63,641 nt of DNA from a virus. The notes beneath the pieces are model-generated. The model worked only from the letters and a program-made list of their open reading frames with translations. It ran no database searches and was not told the origin of the DNA. The stretch is from positions 1-63,641 of IMG/VR virus record IMGVR_UViG_3300024502_000002; one strand, 5' to 3'. Of the stretch, positions 3,171 to 37,598 are shown piece by piece. The stretch's first letter is position 1. Each line of letters begins with the position of its first letter. The position numbers were made by a program, and so were the translations under genes.

Positions 3171-3297
3171 GGTCGATGATCTTTTCAGTGAGGTTCTCGC
3201 ATTCCTTTGTCACCTGCCATTGGAGCCACAAAGGAAAAGCCTTCGCGAGGGACGCAAAGGCTTCGAAAGCGGCAGTAATGGCGGCTAAGATGGTCAT
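3058..3297 (-). CDS. Rz-like inner-membrane protein (i-spanin candidate), 79 aa
   Basis: The N-terminal 30 residues are moderately hydrophobic (MTILAAITAAFEAFASLAKA), followed by a charged helical domain. The start overlaps the stop of the next upstream gene. The o-spanin-like lipoprotein gene begins inside this gene in another frame. The pair is called from layout and topology, not from sequence similarity. Confidence 0.6.
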   Translation of the reverse strand: MTILAAITAAFEAFASLAKAFPLWLQWQVTKECENLTEKIIDHENKGTPLDRSIADRLRSNLAYRRQLNATLQSRHTGD

Positions 3298-3479
3298 TCC
3301 GGCTTCTTGTCGGTGACGTTGAGGCCAACGTGGCGAAGCAGACCAACGATCTTTTCGAGGATCGTGTCATCCTTCGGAGTCGGCGTGAGCTTCACAATGA
3401 TGCGAGCGCCACCCATAATGAGGCCGATTGCAGCGCCGATTTCAACCCAGTGAGAGGAGATGTAGGTGATAATACTCAT
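3294..3479 (-). CDS. Holin-like single-span membrane protein, 61 aa
   Basis: Residues 9-30 are a glycine-rich hydrophobic span (VEIGAAIGLIMGGARIIV), followed by a charged tail. It sits directly above the Rz-like gene and beneath a second membrane protein. A clear promoter (TTGACA-N17-TAAGGT) ends only nine bases before its ATG, so the lysis genes can be transcribed separately from the tail genes with almost no leader. Confidence 0.65.
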   Translation of the reverse strand: MSIITYISSHWVEIGAAIGLIMGGARIIVKLTPTPKDDTILEKIVGLLRHVGLNVTDKKPE

Positions 3480-3934
3480 GGTGAGGTAACCTTACGTTTA
3501 TGATTTTGATGTGTCAAGTCGTCGTTTTTGGAAGCCTTGGAAGCTCCTTTGAGGGCATCAAGAGACAGGTTTTGGAAATCCCTGAGAGAGTTCTTTTGAT
3601 CCTCCTGAAGGTCTTTAATCCCCTTTTCAATATCCTTGAGCAGCTTCGTAAGCTCATCCAAACAATCAGCAAACCTGTTCATTGTGGACAGCCCCTTTCC
3701 CCACACCGCCCGGAGAATGAGGGCGATGAACGTAGCAAGGGCAACAATGAAGAGAATCAACACGACATGCAGAGGTTGAAGGGCTAGTTCTTCCGGCGAA
3801 ATCACGGCGATTTTAGCATAACATCCGTATGCTGTCGTGGCGATTATTCCTAACCCAGAGATGAAAGCTCCGGTGATCTGGTATGCCAAGGCCACAGGTA
3901 GGTCAAAATGATGGGGGTCAATGGGTATCCTCAT
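3476..3934 (-). CDS. Two-span membrane protein, 152 aa (holin-like)
   Basis: The ATG at 3934 (MRIPID) is chosen; the frame extends upstream without good support. There are two hydrophobic segments, about residues 17-37 and 58-80, then a long charged helical tail with coiled-coil character (LTKLLKDIEKGIKDLQEDQ). The last codons (KRKVTSP) contain the -10 box of the promoter for the next gene. The role is probably in lysis. Confidence 0.6.
   Translation of the reverse strand: MRIPIDPHHFDLPVALAYQITGAFISGLGIIATTAYGCYAKIAVISPEELALQPLHVVLILFIVALATFIALILRAVWGKGLSTMNRFADCLDELTKLLKDIEKGIKDLQEDQKNSLRDFQNLSLDALKGASKASKNDDLTHQNHKRKVTSP
3489..3517 (-). promoter_or_regulatory. Promoter for holin/spanin genes, TTGACA-N17-TAAGGT
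   Basis: On the minus strand TTGACA (3517-3512) is followed after exactly 17 bases by TAAGGT (3494-3489), then nine bases to the ATG at 3479. The same CGTAAGGTT core occurs in five other places, four of them with a matching -35 box. It lies inside the end of the upstream coding sequence. Confidence 0.7.
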
Positions 3935-3986
3935 GGTATTTTTGACTATTGTTGGGTTAACCTTTCCGTGTGAAAAAAGGGGATTT

Positions 3987-4373
3987 TCATGGGGTGGATG
4001 TGATTTCGGTTTTTCGTTGCTCTGAAATAATGCCAAGCTCGACAAGTTTGCTGAGTCCCATGACGACGCGGGGATCATCGGCATGGACGGCGGAAAGCCA
4101 AGTGGTTAGCTCAAAACGAAGGGTTGCGATGGTTGGGTCTTCCGATAGGGCAATTTGAGCCTTTTCTGGCATCGTGAACTCCGCCATGAAATCCTCCACA
4201 TTGAGCCACTTTTTAACCTGTTGCTCGAATTCAGCGTCCACCCATTCATTAAGGGTCCGAAGCCTTTCATCATCACTCATGGCAACAGGCTCGCCGTTCA
4301 CCATCTTAATCATGGTGGAGTAACGGGGATCGGCCAAAAGGTCCGCTAGAATCTGTTCTTTAGTTTTCATCAT
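3987..4373 (-). CDS. Hypothetical protein after the tail fibre, 128 aa
   Basis: An acidic, mostly helical 128-residue protein (KEQILADLLADPRYS at the start). Its ATG overlaps the stop of the tail-fibre gene, so it is translated with it. The position suggests a fibre-assembly chaperone or a tail accessory protein, but no motif confirms this. Either of the first two Met codons could be used. Confidence 0.65.
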   Translation of the reverse strand: MMKTKEQILADLLADPRYSTMIKMVNGEPVAMSDDERLRTLNEWVDAEFEQQVKKWLNVEDFMAEFTMPEKAQIALSEDPTIATLRFELTTWLSAVHADDPRVVMGLSKLVELGIISEQRKTEITSTP

Positions 4374-7303
4374 TCAGTCCACCCAAATAGGCGAATTTTG
4401 CCAGAAGTGAAAGTTCCAACGCTCCAAAAGAGACGAATAGCATTGACTACCGCTGCCGAATCACGAACACCACTTCCGATGATGATGTTGGATGCTGCGG
4501 ATGACCAAACCTGACCTAGCAAGTTCCATTTACAAAAAGTCTTCTTTGTAGAGGCCAGCGGGTCGTAAAACTCGACCTCTCCCCACAGTCCGACAGTGCT
4601 TTTACCAACGGTGGCGGATGCTTGAAACTGAATGTAAGTCCCGGTGGTTTGAACCGGCCCATACGTCCCCAGCGGACCGTAGGCGTAACCGTAGTTTGCC
4701 GAGCCGCTGTCAAACGAACTACCGCCGTTTGAAGAGGTCTGCATTCGGAGAATGAAATTTAGATCAGATGAGCCAATAACGTCCTCAAATTGGAGCATGT
4801 AGTTCCGGTAGCTGCCGCTAAATGAGAAGTCGATATTGGTTGGACTACCACTGATGGTTGTGGTGGAGATGAGAACCCAATTACCGCCACCGCTGCCACT
4901 GGCACTGAGTGTCGTTCCACTCATGGAAAGGCCAGAGCCAAGGGTGATTTCCTCAAAGTCTCCCCCGCCAGATGCCGAGCCACGCCCAAGGAGCTTGGAT
5001 GCTGCGGAGGCCTGCGCCAGATTCGAGAGAGGCAAATCGCCCGTCACATCGGTTGTCAGGTCAATCAGGCCGCGAGTGATCGTCTGCCCGCTGATGGTGA
5101 TGTAGTCTGGAGTGCCGGAAAGGCTTACGTCGCCAGAGTTGCTTCCAGAAAGAGTTCCACTTGCTCCATCCGCAATGGTGATTCCGCTGTTTTGTATCAG
5201 TTTACCAGTTGTGGAATCAAACCGGACAATCGCATTGTCGGTGGCGGATGCAGGACCAACCACATCGCCAGAACCACTAGCTGTTGAGTTGATCGTGATG
5301 GAATCTGTGGATGCGTCGGTAGTGATGGTAATGTTGCTGCCAGCCACCAAGGTCAAAGTGTCGCTGGTTGAGTCTGCAACCACATTGCTTTGGCCACTTA
5401 CCGCAAAGGTAGAAAAGACATTTTGGTCGCCCGAGTTTGTCCCGCTCAAATCAAGCGTGGTCTTCATCGTGGCGGCATCGACTCCTAGCTGAATGGTGCC
5501 GCTGCTGGTTATCGGAGAGCCTGAATCGACTTGGATACCATCGGTTCCGCTGATTGCCACGCTGGTAACACCGGGAGATGGCAAGTAGGCTCCAAGGGTG
5601 TTGCCGGTCAGATACAACCCGGTGCCCACAGTGATTTCCGTAACGGCTGCGCTGGAATCATTTGAGCCAAGCAGGATGGCCGATCCTGACAGGTCCTCAA
5701 GATTCGAGATCGGGAGCTGACCAGTCACATCGGTTGACAGGTCAATTTGCTGCATCTCAATTTGTTGGTCCGTAATGGAGAGATAATCGTAACCCACCGA
5801 AAACAATGTTACATCGCCACTATTTGTGCCAGCGAGGTCGAGCGTCGTTTTCATCGTCGCCGCATCCACGCCAAGCTGAATCGTGCCAGAGGTCGTGATG
5901 GGTGAACCAGAGTCCACCTGAATGCCGTCTGTGCCCGAGATGGCAACGCTGGTGACTGTGCCGGAGCCTCCGCCGCCAGAACCGTTTGCAGCGGCAGTGA
6001 TGCGACCTTTTGAATCCACCGTGATATTGGCAGATGTGTAGCTGCCGGGGGTTACGGCGGTATTTGCCAGCGTCAAAGCCCCAGTATTTGCCAAGGTGGC
6101 ATCACCAGAGATAGACTTGTTCTCGAAGACCGTTCCTGCCGCGTTTGCGACAAGAATTTGGCCGGAAGAAAGGCTGGTGATTGTAACACCTTCGTCGTCC
6201 TTGATATTGCTGCCAAGAGTGGGTCGGATGAAAAAAGTCCCGTTGCTCGCGTGGGCGCTGACAACAGCCAGAACTTGAATGTGCGGATTGGGTGCCGCTG
6301 GCTGAGTCTTGGTCAGGTATCCAGTCGTTGTGGAGGCATAGATGATCTGTCCGTCAGCCCAAGACTCGCCGTAGTTGCCTCCGTTGGTTTGAATGCCACG
6401 GAGCTTGCCAAAAGCGATGACAAAGCCTTCCTCGCCGTTGCTGAGTTCTTCAGCGGTCAGGCCCATGAAGTAGGTGGATGGACCCGTGCCATTCCAAGGC
6501 TGGATAAGCAGCTTGCCGCTGTTGCCATCCGTCCCGCTGAACATGACGGGGACACCTTTGGCAATCGTGGAGCCAGTGCTGTTTTTGACGTGGTAAACGA
6601 CATGCTCGCCAACATGGAGGGCAAATCCGTTAAGCTGAATATCCAGCGTTTCCTCGCCGTTGTTCCACATCATCTGTCCTTGCGTGGACAGCGATCCAGA
6701 TGGCGTCGTGTCCATTGCGATGCTGTTCACGTTCGCAAGGTCGCCAGTGTCAGATTCGGTGATTTGGCCGTTTTGAACCAGTTTCCCAGTCGTTCCGTCG
6801 AAGCGGACCAGAGCATTGTCTGTCGAGGATGCCGGACCAACGACATCGCCACTTCCGGTCGCAGTAATGGTGGTGCCAGTAATCGACAGGCCACTACCAA
6901 CTGTAAGCGAGGTAAGTTTGCTTTGAGATTCGTCCCAAAACACCAGTTTGTCTGAACCTTGATCGTCTGCCGAGATAGCCTGACCAGTGATGGTGAGAAT
7001 GTCTGTAACCGTTGAGTCCAGCGTCACATCGCCTGTATTCGTGCCAGAAAGCGTGCCAGACGCGCCATCGGCAATCGTGATGCCGCTGTTTTGGATGACC
7101 TTGCCGCTCGTCCCATCAAAACGGACAATCTGGTTGTCGAGGGACAGGCTGGAAGAGGTGACATCGCCTGTTCCGCTTACAGGAGTTGAGACATCCACGG
7201 TGATGCTTGGAGCGGCCTCGCCAATGTTCACGATCACATCGCCCGTATCCGTAACCTGCACAGTTGGGGATGTGTCTCCGGTGACGGTGATATTCGGCGT
7301 CAT
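4370..7303 (-). CDS. Repetitive tail fibre/spike protein, 977 aa
   Basis: A glycine/serine/threonine-rich beta-repeat protein. One module (VRFDGTSGKVIQNSG-type, then a SGTNTGDVTL tail) occurs three times, near the N-terminus, near residue 155 and near residue 700. A second module (VAISGTDGIQVDSGSPI through TMKTTLDL) occurs twice about 130 residues apart. The middle has a domain with aromatic and glycine-rich stretches. The last ~150 residues (from GGGNWVLIST) are non-repetitive and probably form the receptor-contact domain. The ATG overlaps the stop of the upstream tail gene. Confidence 0.85.
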   Translation of the reverse strand: MTPNITVTGDTSPTVQVTDTGDVIVNIGEAAPSITVDVSTPVSGTGDVTSSSLSLDNQIVRFDGTSGKVIQNSGITIADGASGTLSGTNTGDVTLDSTVTDILTITGQAISADDQGSDKLVFWDESQSKLTSLTVGSGLSITGTTITATGSGDVVGPASSTDNALVRFDGTTGKLVQNGQITESDTGDLANVNSIAMDTTPSGSLSTQGQMMWNNGEETLDIQLNGFALHVGEHVVYHVKNSTGSTIAKGVPVMFSGTDGNSGKLLIQPWNGTGPSTYFMGLTAEELSNGEEGFVIAFGKLRGIQTNGGNYGESWADGQIIYASTTTGYLTKTQPAAPNPHIQVLAVVSAHASNGTFFIRPTLGSNIKDDEGVTITSLSSGQILVANAAGTVFENKSISGDATLANTGALTLANTAVTPGSYTSANITVDSKGRITAAANGSGGGGSGTVTSVAISGTDGIQVDSGSPITTSGTIQLGVDAATMKTTLDLAGTNSGDVTLFSVGYDYLSITDQQIEMQQIDLSTDVTGQLPISNLEDLSGSAILLGSNDSSAAVTEITVGTGLYLTGNTLGAYLPSPGVTSVAISGTDGIQVDSGSPITSSGTIQLGVDAATMKTTLDLSGTNSGDQNVFSTFAVSGQSNVVADSTSDTLTLVAGSNITITTDASTDSITINSTASGSGDVVGPASATDNAIVRFDSTTGKLIQNSGITIADGASGTLSGSNSGDVSLSGTPDYITISGQTITRGLIDLTTDVTGDLPLSNLAQASAASKLLGRGSASGGGDFEEITLGSGLSMSGTTLSASGSGGGNWVLISTTTISGSPTNIDFSFSGSYRNYMLQFEDVIGSSDLNFILRMQTSSNGGSSFDSGSANYGYAYGPLGTYGPVQTTGTYIQFQASATVGKSTVGLWGEVEFYDPLASTKKTFCKWNLLGQVWSSAASNIIIGSGVRDSAAVVNAIRLFWSVGTFTSGKIRLFGWTE

Positions 7304-31658: not shown

Positions 31659-32458
31659 GCGAACACACTGAACTAGAAATCCTAAAACCCGAACGCATCA
31701 CCGCCATCGAGCAAGTCACCCGAGCCGAGGTGGACACACAAATCAGCACGGCCAAAAAGTATCCACGCACGCTGTCCAAGGTGAAGGCCGACATGCTTTC
31801 CTTTGCCACGCTGGATCAAGAAACTGCCGAGAACTGTTTCTACACGTTGCCTCGCGGTGGCAAAAGCATTCAAGGTCCATCCGTTCGATTGGCTGAAATC
31901 GCCGTTTCGTGCTACGGCAACCTGCGTGCTGGCAGTCGCATCATCGACACTGTCTCCAGTGGAGACAGTCCGCACGTTGTTATTCAGGCAGTTTGCCATG
32001 ACCTCGAAAAGAACGTGGCCGTCACGGTTGAGAAACGTCGTCGCATCGTTGGCAAGAAGTCCAAAGGTGGAGCAATCGACGAAGATGACATCAACCTCGC
32101 GGCCAACGCAGGTGCCGCCATCGCTTTCCGTGACGCTGTATTCAAAGTTGTTCCCGGCGCTCTCATCAAGCCCATCTTTGAGCAGGCCAAGCAGGTCGCC
32201 ATCGGTGATGCCAAAACACTCGCAGAACGCCGCCAGCGTGCGGTTGAATCGTTTGGGAAAATGGGCGTGCAGAAGGACAAGATTCTGGCTTTGCTTGGCA
32301 AACGTTCTGTGGACGACATCGACCTCGCTGACCTCGAAACACTTTTTGGTCTTCACACAGCCATCAAGGACGGCCAGACCACCATTGATGAAGCCTTTAC
32401 TAAGGATGCGCCCAAAGCCGATCTGAAACTTCCATCCTCTCAGGAGGCCGCTGAATGA
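31655..32458 (+). CDS. Putative single-strand annealing protein, 267 aa
   Basis: The body contains SIQGPSVRLAEIAVSCYGNL, then DDINLAANAGAAIAFRDAVF and KVVPGALIKPIFEQAKQVA, a pattern of phage proteins encoded beside RecE-like exonucleases. Such partners anneal complementary single strands during phage recombination (RecT, Erf or Rad52-like). The assignment rests on this neighbourhood and on pattern memory; no fold was computed. The C-terminus is low-complexity. It overlaps the exonuclease gene by ATGA. Confidence 0.55.
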   Translation: MSEHTELEILKPERITAIEQVTRAEVDTQISTAKKYPRTLSKVKADMLSFATLDQETAENCFYTLPRGGKSIQGPSVRLAEIAVSCYGNLRAGSRIIDTVSSGDSPHVVIQAVCHDLEKNVAVTVEKRRRIVGKKSKGGAIDEDDINLAANAGAAIAFRDAVFKVVPGALIKPIFEQAKQVAIGDAKTLAERRQRAVESFGKMGVQKDKILALLGKRSVDDIDLADLETLFGLHTAIKDGQTTIDEAFTKDAPKADLKLPSSQEAAE

Positions 32459-33249
32459 TCCTTCTCGAAGACGACATCTACCGGCCACATCCGGCGCTCA
32501 ACTACTCGGCAGCCAAGGCGTTGCTGAAGTCTCCCAAGCACTTTCAAGCGGCCATCAATCGCAAGTTTGAGCCATCGCGTGAGATGCAGATTGGCACCTA
32601 CGTCCACGAAATCGTTCTGGAAGGTAAGTCACCGTCCTACATCGTGCGCCCTGCTAACATCGACCTTCGCACCAAAGAGGGTAAGGCATGGCGAGACAAG
32701 AACGCAGGCCGTGAAATCCTGTCGCCAGAAGATGATCTGGCCGTCCGCATGGCCGCTGATGCCGTTCGCAAAAGCGCGGACGCCCAGTATCTTCTTGGTC
32801 GTTGCCCCAATCGTGAGCATGGCATCGTGCAGACATTCGGCGGCGTGGAAATCAAGGGCAAGCTGGATGCCTACGGGACGGATGAGGCTGGCAAACCGAT
32901 CGTTCTGGATTTTAAGACAACATCCAATGCCGATCCTGAAGAGTGGGGCCGCAAAGCCTTTGGCCTTCGTTACCCGATGCAGACTGCATGGTATCAATCT
33001 CTACTCGCCTTGGAACTTGGCCTTGATGAACCGCCAGCCTATTTCTGGCTGTGTGTCGAGACGCAAGAGCCTTACGACGTTGTGATCTACCAACCTCCCG
33101 AGGAGGCTCTTGATATTGGTCGCGCTCAAATGAAGCATTGCATTGAGCTTTACAAGACTTGCAAGGAGTCTGGCAAATGGCCCGGATACTCTCGCGGCAT
33201 CATTGAACTCGAAGTTCCTGCATGGGAACGCAAACGCTGGATCAAATAA
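32455..33249 (+). CDS. RecE-like PD-(D/E)XK exonuclease, 264 aa
   Basis: Contains the nuclease core GKLDAYGTDEAGKPIVLDFKTT (about residues 136-157: D139, D152-F-K154) and then YPMQTAWYQSLLALEL with the helix Gln/Tyr expected of the YqaJ/Cas4/RecE group. N-terminal LNYSAAKALLKSPKHFQAAI and GTYVHEIVLEG fit exodeoxyribonuclease VIII-like proteins. It would resect double-strand ends for the annealing protein encoded just upstream. Confidence 0.8.
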   Translation: MILLEDDIYRPHPALNYSAAKALLKSPKHFQAAINRKFEPSREMQIGTYVHEIVLEGKSPSYIVRPANIDLRTKEGKAWRDKNAGREILSPEDDLAVRMAADAVRKSADAQYLLGRCPNREHGIVQTFGGVEIKGKLDAYGTDEAGKPIVLDFKTTSNADPEEWGRKAFGLRYPMQTAWYQSLLALELGLDEPPAYFWLCVETQEPYDVVIYQPPEEALDIGRAQMKHCIELYKTCKESGKWPGYSRGIIELEVPAWERKRWIK

Positions 33250-34087: not shown

Positions 34088-34270
34088 ATGCCAATCTCCG
34101 AACTAATCTCACAGCTTCAAGCCATCCAAGCCACGCACGGCGACGTTCCTGTTGAAATCAAACTCCAGTTCCTCGGCTCTCACGCCTGCGGTCTGGTGAT
34201 TGACCTCCGCTATCGCTCGACTGGCATTGGCAAACCTTTCGTTCAAATCATAGCACAAGAAAAAGCATGA
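34088..34270 (+). CDS. Small hypothetical protein, 60 aa
   Basis: A helical start (ELISQLQAIQATHGDVPVEI) then beta strands (GLVIDLRYRS, FVQIIAQE), a pattern of small phage proteins of unknown function. It overlaps the next gene. Confidence 0.6.
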   Translation: MPISELISQLQAIQATHGDVPVEIKLQFLGSHACGLVIDLRYRSTGIGKPFVQIIAQEKA

Positions 34271-34377
34271 ATACTTTTATTTTAGCCTGCGAATCTTCTG
34301 GAAACTGGCCCGCCGCTTTGGTTATCAGCGTGGCTATTATTTGCGGAACAATCTTTTTACTCAAAGTTTTGAAATGA
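34267..34377 (+). CDS. Small membrane protein, 36 aa
   Basis: One hydrophobic helix (WPAALVISVAIICGTIF) after a short polar start. ATGA overlaps on both sides join it to its neighbours. Confidence 0.55.
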   Translation: MNTFILACESSGNWPAALVISVAIICGTIFLLKVLK

Positions 34378-34754
34378 AACCCGGCTATCATGGCATCCTC
34401 AGACTCTTCCCAAACGCCAGTCCTGATCTTCTCGCTCGAAATACCGGGACGTCTGCCGTCGTGGAACGAAGTTCTGTCGATGAACCATTGGCGCAGGAAG
34501 AAGTTCAAAGACCAACTGGCGGCAGAGTTCTTGTCCGCGTTGAAAGCGTCCGCAAACGACTCCTCGATGAAGATAATCTGTGCGAGAAGTATCATGTTGA
34601 CCTACTGCGCTACGCTGGAGTCATATCTGGCGACGAAGCGGACAAAACAAAAATTGAGACAAGCCAGCGCAAGGCTCAAAAAGGCGAAGAAGAAAAAATC
34701 ATCATAACCGTGGAATCATGCCCAACACCAAAGCCTCGCCAGCCCATCGCCTAG
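34374..34754 (+). CDS. RusA-like resolvase, catalytic C-terminal part (frame B), 126 aa
   Basis: Residues 45-110 match the RusA catalytic half: VRVESVRKRLLDEDNLCEKY with LDEDN for the two catalytic Asp, K in CEKY for the lysine, then LRYAGVISGDEADKTKI with the third Asp, and an IIITVE strand. The first ~45 residues look random and lack the RusA N-terminal fold. That fold appears, one frame away, in the gene at 34390-34707. It starts by ATGA overlap with the preceding membrane gene. Confidence 0.65.
   Translation: MKPGYHGILRLFPNASPDLLARNTGTSAVVERSSVDEPLAQEEVQRPTGGRVLVRVESVRKRLLDEDNLCEKYHVDLLRYAGVISGDEADKTKIETSQRKAQKGEEEKIIITVESCPTPKPRQPIA
34390..34707 (+). CDS. RusA-like resolvase, N-terminal part (frame A), 105 aa
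   Basis: Residues 10-50 match the RusA start (LIFSLEIPGRLPSWNEVLSM, NHWRRKKFKDQLAAEFLSAL), the strand and helix that precede the catalytic half. After about residue 55 the frame turns into Lys/Arg-rich, non-RusA sequence, while the matching continuation lies in frame B (34374-34754). A -1 shift near 34540-34560 would restore a whole enzyme of about 120 residues. No canonical slippery heptamer is evident. Confidence 0.6.
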   Translation: MASSDSSQTPVLIFSLEIPGRLPSWNEVLSMNHWRRKKFKDQLAAEFLSALKASANDSSMKIICARSIMLTYCATLESYLATKRTKQKLRQASARLKKAKKKKSS

Positions 34755-34957
34755 CGCACCGTCTGGCGTCCACGCTGTCAGCCACCAAAGCCGACAAGGA
34801 GGAGGTGACAAAAATCCTCATCGACCTGCTGGCGCATCAAATTTCAAGCTACCACCCCATCCACCGGGACTGCATTTGGGACGCCGCCGTTGACGAACTC
34901 GATGAGATGGTGGAGATTTTCTCAACCATAGGAGACAAGCAATATGAACGAAACTGA
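34718..34957 (+). CDS. Hypothetical helical protein, 79 aa
   Basis: Helical and acidic in its second half (KADKEEVTKILIDLLAHQ, WDAAVDELDEMVEIFSTI). It overlaps frame B of RusA and the membrane gene after it. No family recognised. Confidence 0.6.
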   Translation: MPNTKASPAHRLAHRLASTLSATKADKEEVTKILIDLLAHQISSYHPIHRDCIWDAAVDELDEMVEIFSTIGDKQYERN

Positions 34958-35424: not shown

Positions 35425-36237
35425 ATGCAAATCCTCCAAGATCAGAATGAGTTCAACGTCATCTTCGTTCACTCTAAGCTCGATGACGCAGGTTTAACCC
35501 CATACGCTTTTCGCGTTTACTGCCACATCGCCAGACGTGCGAATCGAGCTAAATCCGCTTGGCCCGGAATCGGCAGTATTGCCAAGATATGCGAGATGTC
35601 TGAAAGCACCGCTCGCAGAGCCATTCAGGAGCTTGAAGATCGAGACATGCTGATGGTCCAGAGGTGCGCTGGTATCAACTACACCAATCTCTACACTCTA
35701 ACATCCACAGATCAATGGAAGGAGAAAAAGGAAAATACCCCTGTCTCACAGACACCACCCCCCTTTCCCACAGACACCCCTCCCCTGTCTGTGGGACACC
35801 CTAAGGTAATCCAAGAAGGTAATCCATATATTCCCGAATTAAAAAATTCGGGCCACGCGCCCCTTGAGTTATTCTCTTTTTCCAATCCAGTCGAGAAGGA
35901 AGCAATTCTAGCACCACAGACCAAACGACGCGGCAGACCACCGAATACCAGCAAACCGGCTGATCCTCGCCACAAGGAAGCGATAGACATGTGGACGACC
36001 CTCTGGAATCAGCGATTCTCGACCACCTACTCATTTCACCCCAAGGATGCCAAGCACCTCCAGACTTTTTTGGCCGCAAATCCATCCATAACAGTCGCAA
36101 AAATGAGAGAAGCCTTGGAGGGAATTTGGTCGCTCGAAGTCGAAAAGGGCGCTTTTGCCCCTAATTCCATCCGAATCCTCAACCTCTGCGACCTTTGCCT
36201 TCGCTGGAACACCATCATCGGGAACCTTGAAAAATGA
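35425..36237 (+). CDS. Replication initiator/helicase-loader-like protein, 270 aa
   Basis: The start at 35425 (MQILQDQN) lies just after the terminator. Residues 20-95 are a winged helix of the phage O/DnaD type (LTPYAFRVYCHIARRANRAK, GSIAKICEMSESTARRAIQE, DRDMLMVQR). A proline-rich linker (TPPPFPTDTPPLS) and a C-terminal helical domain that could bind helicase follow. The stop overlaps the DnaB gene by ATGA, as for initiator-helicase pairs. Confidence 0.75.
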   Translation: MQILQDQNEFNVIFVHSKLDDAGLTPYAFRVYCHIARRANRAKSAWPGIGSIAKICEMSESTARRAIQELEDRDMLMVQRCAGINYTNLYTLTSTDQWKEKKENTPVSQTPPPFPTDTPPLSVGHPKVIQEGNPYIPELKNSGHAPLELFSFSNPVEKEAILAPQTKRRGRPPNTSKPADPRHKEAIDMWTTLWNQRFSTTYSFHPKDAKHLQTFLAANPSITVAKMREALEGIWSLEVEKGAFAPNSIRILNLCDLCLRWNTIIGNLEK

Positions 36238-37598
36238 CAAACCTCACCACCGAAGAACTCCTCGCCACGCTAAACGCCCCTCTTCCTGCCTCAAAGGAAG
36301 CCGAGGAGGGCATGATTTCGTGCCTGTTCTTCAACCCCAACTGGTGCGAACAAGCTCCTCCGGCTGAGCAGTTCTACCATCCCTCGCGCCGTCTGATCTA
36401 CTCCACGATCATCAACCAGTTCAACAAAGGACTCCCGGTGGACGTGATGGCAATTACGCACGTTTTCCGAGAGATGGGCAAGCTGGACGAAGTTGGCGGA
36501 CCTCATTACATCTCCGACCTTTACTCGTTCGCCATCCTCCAATCTCATTTTTCATACTATTCAGAGATTCTGAAAAGGAACTACCAGTTTCGTTGCATGA
36601 TTCATGCCTGTGCCGCTGGAATCCACGCTATAAGGCGATTTAACGAGTCGGAGGACGTTTCCGCTATGGACATACTCGGAGGGGTCCAAAAGGCTGTAAA
36701 TGAGGCTATTCTGGACGACGGAAGCCCCGATGTAGAATTTCGGCCACTCCCCGACATCATTCACGCGGTTGTTGACCAAATGGAGGACCGGGCAAAGAAC
36801 CCCGGAAGGATTCCCGGCGTCTCGACTGGTTTTCTCAAACTTGACGAGTATTCCGGCGGCTTGGAGGACGGAACTCTTACTGTCATCGCCGCCAAGCCAT
36901 CGGAGGGTAAATCGGCCCTTTGTCGCCAGATTGTCGAGAATGCCTGCCTCAGCAACCATCTTTGCGACATCTTTACCGTGGAAATGACGGATATTCAGGA
37001 GGTGACGCGTCTTTTGTGCTCTCAGGCAGGGGTTGACGCCCAAAACATGAAGCTGGGAATGCTTACCCGAGGCGAGCAACTGAGCCTAACCGCCAAGATG
37101 GCAAAGGTGGCGCAGTGGAATCTGCGGGTAATTGATTCGGCAAACCTAACCATTGAGAAGATTTGCCGCGCCGTGATCCGACGCTCGAAACAGCGGAAAC
37201 CGGGCCAGAAATACATTGTCGTAATCGACTACATCCAGATTTGCTCGACGGCTGAAAACACCGCGAACCGGGAACGTGAGGTGGCTCACATCACCAAAAC
37301 GGCCAAACAATGTGCCAAGGCCACCGGGGCTTGTTTCTTGATGCCCTCACAGCTTAATGACGCCAACGAGGCCCGAGAATCCCGCGCCATCGAGCAGGAC
37401 GCAGACAACTTCTGGATGATTGTCGATGTTGAGGACAAGGAACCAAAGAAGCCGTGGCAGAAAAAGAAGGAAGATGAACCAACCGATGATCGCGACCTGT
37501 TCCTGAAAAAGACCCGCAACGGCCAGCGGCGAAAGAGGGTTCCGCTTCGTGCCAACATGCGCTACTTCCGATTTGAACCGAGAGGGACTGAAGAATGA
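36234..37598 (+). CDS. DnaB-like replicative helicase, 454 aa
   Basis: The N-terminal DnaB domain (KEAEEGMISCLFFNP, RRLIYSTIINQFNKG, DVMAITHVFREMGKLDEVGG) covers residues 15-110. The RecA-like core has Walker A (AAKPSEGKSAL, ~219-228), the H2-like EMTDIQEVTRLL and Walker B (YIVVIDYIQI, ~328-337), then an arginine-rich C-terminus. It unwinds DNA ahead of the host or phage replisome. The phage has no polymerase gene that I can see, so it must recruit the host enzyme. Confidence 0.9.
   Translation: MTNLTTEELLATLNAPLPASKEAEEGMISCLFFNPNWCEQAPPAEQFYHPSRRLIYSTIINQFNKGLPVDVMAITHVFREMGKLDEVGGPHYISDLYSFAILQSHFSYYSEILKRNYQFRCMIHACAAGIHAIRRFNESEDVSAMDILGGVQKAVNEAILDDGSPDVEFRPLPDIIHAVVDQMEDRAKNPGRIPGVSTGFLKLDEYSGGLEDGTLTVIAAKPSEGKSALCRQIVENACLSNHLCDIFTVEMTDIQEVTRLLCSQAGVDAQNMKLGMLTRGEQLSLTAKMAKVAQWNLRVIDSANLTIEKICRAVIRRSKQRKPGQKYIVVIDYIQICSTAENTANREREVAHITKTAKQCAKATGACFLMPSQLNDANEARESRAIEQDADNFWMIVDVEDKEPKKPWQKKKEDEPTDDRDLFLKKTRNGQRRKRVPLRANMRYFRFEPRGTEE

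Follow-up and report, generated by a model that had tools for sequence, protein, structure and literature searches.

RusA-type resolvases, typified by E. coli RusA (PF05866; PHROG 34 and 1682), consist of one polypeptide chain. This is also the case for single-frame sister genes of the locus described here (Mx8 p24, BcepIL02 gp18, BcepMigl gp66 and loci L129 and L152), in which an N-terminal half with the signature PSLN/GLNA..HW and a C-terminal half with the signature LDxDN..RDAI / DDxP are encoded in one frame, with 138–162 nt between the motifs; an N-terminal extension is present in some of these relatives, and the +1 frame is closed; all 11 single-frame relatives compared have stops in it. 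A paper on programmed frameshifting in phages (PRFect, PMC10885494) remarks that RusA and RuvC are known to be frameshifted; a source for RusA was not found in its reference list, where the only Holliday-junction paper located deals with the RuvC gene product (ref 40). In the open-access papers searched, no description emerged of a RusA that is split, heterodimeric or encoded by overlapping genes.

In the window (the whole stretch of viral DNA analyzed here, 63,641 nucleotides of the IMG/VR record IMGVR_UViG_3300024502_000002), both halves are recognizable but, unlike in RusA and its single-frame relatives, lie in different, overlapping frames: the Asp/Asp/Lys/Asp residues of RusA are in place in ORF B, whereas ORF A aligns to the N-terminal half of RusA and carries an additional basic C-terminal helix (Table 1). 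Both ORFs start with ATG and encode 105 (A) and 126 (B) amino acids; A is in the +1 frame relative to B, and frame B is open further upstream, back to an in-frame TTG at 34341. The motifs are LEIPGRLPSWN..NHWRRKKFKDQ in A and RLLDEDNLCEKY..GVISGDEADK, also given as VRKRLLDEDNLCEKY..GVISGDEADK, in B. The pair is located in a replication/recombination region, between genes for a DUF3799/PDDEXK nuclease (32455–33249) and a DnaB-type helicase (36234–37598), and is flanked by two small ORFs (34088–34270 and 34718–34957) that have no Pfam matches. We consider it likely that A and B are stacked genes, translated separately, whose products assemble into one split RusA-like enzyme.

Table 1. Features of the two-frame locus, in positions of the window
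Feature	Position	Strand	Description	Basis or remark
ORF B	34374..34754	+	N-terminal helical module, disordered linker, RusA-type catalytic half	AF2 model; fold match to E. coli RusA residues 52-118
ORF A	34390..34707	+	RusA N-terminal half, then basic C-terminal helix	AF2 model; hhalign to single-frame RusA
B residues 6-21	34389..34436	+	'HGILRLFPNASPDLLA' module, two short helices	AF2; other modules instead in relatives
A residues 13-26	34426..34467	+	beta1 candidate and PSWN motif	PSxN invariant or almost so
A residues 33-57	34486..34560	+	Predicted unbroken helix (alpha1) across the frame changeover	AF2
B residues 51-60	34524..34553	+	beta2, first strand of the catalytic half	AF2; same nucleotides code part of A's helix
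B active site D65, D67, K72, D87	34566..34634	+	DEDNLCEK .. GDE	Invariant in families I and II
A C-terminal segment T75 L76 x S78 Y79 L80	34606..34645	+		Amino-acid selection despite B in the same bases

The relationship of the two ORFs to RusA was assessed by comparison with a profile of single-frame RusA proteins that included L129, L152, the phages BIM BV-113, Brujita, GAL1, Wigglewiggle, Ruthy, Mx8, BcepIL02 and BcepMigl, two metagenomic records and E. coli RusA. For A, the N-terminal part aligned to columns 7–50 of this profile (hhalign, prob 87.8, E 3.3e-6, score 32.5; the best score among 30 column shuffles was 10.9), whereas frame B of the same DNA produced no alignment (score 5.4); the C-terminal half of B aligned to columns 63–110 (prob 97). 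The N-terminal beta1-alpha1 half of the fold is thus present, in frame A only, and judging from these alignments the two halves are complementary with respect to single-frame RusA. This bears out the central proposal of the first-pass annotation, namely, a RusA-type enzyme spread over two overlapping frames, each holding one half.

All 49 B sequences compared share the catalytic residues D65, D67, K72 and D87, and B matches phrog_34 (E 1.5e-4), as do 18 of 47 B members in total. Neither ORF, nor the fused sequence, had a RusA match in Pfam, PF05866 produced no hit against the window at E<=10, and the Pfam, NCBIfam and PDB sequence profiles were uninformative for all three sequences. Profile search likewise identified no second RusA elsewhere in the window, a negative result that carries little weight given that A and B themselves escape these profiles.

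Structure prediction (AF2) yielded a well-predicted beta-alpha-beta-beta core of B from residue 51, preceded by a low-confidence linker (residues 22–50) without regular structure. In the structural comparison, the top row for B placed residues 49–117 on residues 52–118 of E. coli RusA (66 residues, rmsd 2.7 A, Z 5.3, which is modest in absolute terms), and the top VIA-align rows were 1q8r_B, 2h8e and 2h8c (66–68 residues, rmsd 2.7–2.8, Z about 5); a Foldseek search of the B model against the PDB gave no significant E-value but listed RusA with a probability of 0.91. In the model of A, the helix of residues 33–57 runs straight across the changeover and is followed by a second helix (residues 64–104); A alone matched no family, and Foldseek found nothing in the PDB for its model. 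Because the curated profile does not detect the locus and the halves are not on one chain, here or in any close relative, we did not file it under PF05866; with regard to function, the A/B product most likely works like RusA.

Separate searches of viral contigs with A and with B retrieved largely the same loci, and a search with the B alignment added three loci from Verrucomicrobia genomes, two of these from Verrucomicrobium sp. strains. After clustering, 34 non-redundant loci (separated by more than 12% DNA divergence) comprise family I, with identity as low as about 35–40%; both frames are open in all 34, and the distance from PSWN in frame A to DEDN in frame B is 110 nt in the loci where it was measured directly. 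A distant match, L126, led to family II, which has 15 members (within L131–L148, plus BK063671.1, a Methanomicrobiales virus) with distinct versions of the motifs (LPTWNRxLAMxxWxRKKLRDWIH in A and RVxIHVxSYRKRxxDPDGISAKA in B). Four more diverged loci (L127, L165, L172 and L173) have the same layout; in three of these, A is shorter. Across all these loci, 34 in family I, 15 in family II and the 4 diverged ones, A is always in the +1 frame relative to B, and L062 and L063, from cultured Verrucomicrobium strains, carry the same frame break; BvORR034 and BvORR106 are cultured strains of Verrucomicrobium with the locus. The first-pass annotation had named a single-frame gene in close relatives as a refutation; single-frame genes were seen only in distant relatives.

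The 3' ends of A and B are at most about 30 nt apart in most loci. The A-frame leucine at 34540–34542 is leucine in all 34 family I loci, and nucleotide conservation around beta2 is extreme (TTCTTGTCCGCGTTACGAGC). The N-terminal module of B is variable, with at least three kinds among the loci (FPNAS, GYxxxDGxW and zinc-ribbon-like), all in frame B; in one family II locus, L136 (1298–1711), the N-terminal extension is joined to frame A, whereas in other loci it is joined to frame B. In BK063671.1 (12539–12826), frame A alone is annotated (DBA35050.1, hypothetical protein), and the overlapping frame B, which is the catalytic one, has no annotation. One family I relative (IMGVR_UViG_3300032305_000789, 3195–4908) has the A/B overlap broken just past DEDNLCEK by a 271 aa nuclease-like ORF (3239–4054) followed by a 253 aa HNH/AP2-like ORF; the interruption, which has no Rfam match, resembles a homing element inserted into the resolvase.

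Selection on the two frames was evaluated by resampling synonymous codons with local codon usage and counting stops, with the loci treated as independent, so that the implied probabilities are overstated. In family I (34 loci), frame A downstream of the changeover contained a single stop, the natural end of A, against 37 expected, and frame B upstream of the changeover contained none against 42 expected, whereas the third frame, used as the control, contained 95 stops where 124 were expected and 60 where 39 were expected. Family II behaved in the same manner, with no stops in A downstream (35 expected; 57 against 56 expected in the third frame) and none in B upstream (10 expected). The third frame is thus without protection, and its contrast with A and B is large; one exception to the closed third frame is L118 (1985–2791), where this frame, too, is open throughout the locus (positions -184 to +623 with respect to the core).

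An amino-acid test showed a constrained stretch in A from +85 to +121, with peaks of z = 10.3 at +88 and 15.8 at +97, whereas several other A columns, with z near zero, served as an internal control. Given that conservation of the third frame was also raised in this test (Z 14.5), we set the overall Z aside and consider only the column-specific peaks persuasive. A further indication comes from the rare isoleucine codon ATA, which in B at +93/+96 spells tyrosine in A: family II uses it in all 12 cases (3.7 expected) and family I in 12 of 28 (4.5 expected), and it is not over-used at other isoleucine positions of family I (8 of 99, 15.6 expected). As the neighboring genes differ between loci, the controls for the codon tests were the third frame, the low-z columns and single-frame genes. 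Taken together, these results come close to showing that both frames are functional.

A possible start codon is present in each frame at every locus. In most loci, the starts of B and A are 4–20 nt apart (16 nt in the window, 34374 and 34390); in some (L131, L133, L134 and L136), the B start is found only inside A. In the window, neither start has more than a weak Shine-Dalgarno sequence, and such motifs are inconsistent among the loci.

To account for the two open frames, the first-pass annotation had offered an indel in the assembly, a fusion by -1 frameshifting near 34540–34560, or two proteins that assemble. An indel from assembly or sequencing, or decay into a pseudogene, has only the frame break itself in its favor; the same break, with the same spacing (107–119 nt), recurs in about 50 separately assembled loci, including L062 and L063, with both frames under selection. 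Assembly error is excluded by this shared layout, and we regard the probability of an artifact or a pseudogene as negligible; the first-pass annotation was right that the openness of both frames speaks against an error. Ribosomes could start in A and slip by -1 into B near 34520–34545, producing one fused RusA polypeptide, and several observations are compatible with this scenario: the fused profile matches single-frame RusA better (prob 96, E 2.4e-9) than B alone (prob 80, E 1.5e-5), many family I loci have T TTC TTG at the junction, and L136 has no frame B start codon upstream of A's helix, its sole B start being a TTG inside A. However, about 57 codons of A beyond the slip site, and about 50 codons of B ahead of it, remain open and under constraint; there is no conserved slippery heptamer (any XXXYYYZ in frame A occurs in only 11 of 49 loci, at scattered positions), and the junction in the window reads G TTC TTG. 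Furthermore, the PSxN-DxD distance in the two-frame loci (107–119 nt) is shorter than in the single-frame relatives, so that a -1 fusion would be ~10–18 residues shorter than single-frame RusA, cutting into alpha1. The helix of A is conserved past any slip point that would spare beta2 of B; residues F47, L48 and L51 of A and strand residues 52–58 of B share bases 34527–34547, and because the same bases code both, a single -1 slip must lose either the helix or the strand. We therefore find fusion by programmed frameshifting improbable, although frameshifting may yield a minor additional product.

Another alternative is that B suffices as a resolvase, perhaps a smaller one, and A is an independent protein overprinted on the same DNA, such as a regulator or a DNA-binding partner, in which the likeness to the RusA N-terminal half is a relic. 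B holds every catalytic residue and alone matches RusA PHROG families, and A has a lysine-rich C-terminal helix and matches no family. Nevertheless, B lacks beta1 and alpha1 and has in their place in the AF2 model the low-confidence, irregular stretch of residues 22–50, whereas A retains exactly beta1 and alpha1, which are strongly conserved in divergent families; we consider this scenario unlikely. Two full-length polypeptides forming one split enzyme are favored over programmed frameshifting because A and B are each protected on either side of the changeover, alpha1 and beta2 share nucleotides, a conserved slippery site is lacking and the -1 fusion would be shorter than single-frame RusA. 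Of the options offered by the first-pass annotation, two proteins that would assemble hence fits best.

Under the split-enzyme model, A and B would be a fully overlapping gene pair, each translated from its own start (34390 for A, 34374 for B). A would supply the N-terminal half of the RusA fold (beta1, the PSWN turn and alpha1) along with the basic C-terminal helix, and B the N-terminal module, the flexible linker and the catalytic half, which runs from beta2 to the C-terminus and contains the Asp/Asp/Lys/Asp active site. The two products would fold together, with beta1-alpha1 of A completing the sheet of B, probably as an A2B2 complex analogous to the RusA homodimer, and the complex would cut branched DNA in phage recombination and replication. 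Separate translation, assembly, this stoichiometry and junction cleavage are inferred. The pair could have originated by a frame break that also shortened the alpha1-beta2 loop, after which each frame came to be used independently. It appears, on balance, probable that a compact nuclease domain now exists permanently as two obligate subunits in stacked frames, with alpha1 and beta2 sharing nucleotides, and that this state has been kept in at least two, probably three, families of bacterial and archaeal viruses.

If this is correct, the halves of an enzyme became separate overlapping genes with neither half lost, and a frame break in a loop provides a testable route from one gene to a split protein and an overprinted pair. 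Standard annotation may retain only one frame, as in BK063671.1, where only A is kept; given, in addition, that RusA profiles miss the locus in the window, resolvases in such phages have probably been overlooked. Among known phage systems, the Rz/Rz1 spanins of lambda (PMC5295617) similarly comprise two proteins that are encoded in overlapping frames and act as one complex; those, however, are distinct membrane proteins, whereas A and B would be halves of one enzymatic domain, with secondary-structure elements sharing nucleotides. Phage genes expressed by programmed -1 frameshifting, such as those for tail assembly chaperones (PRFect, PMC10885494), also spread one function over two overlapping frames, but the A/B pair differs in having no conserved slippery site and in that both frames are selected past the putative shift.
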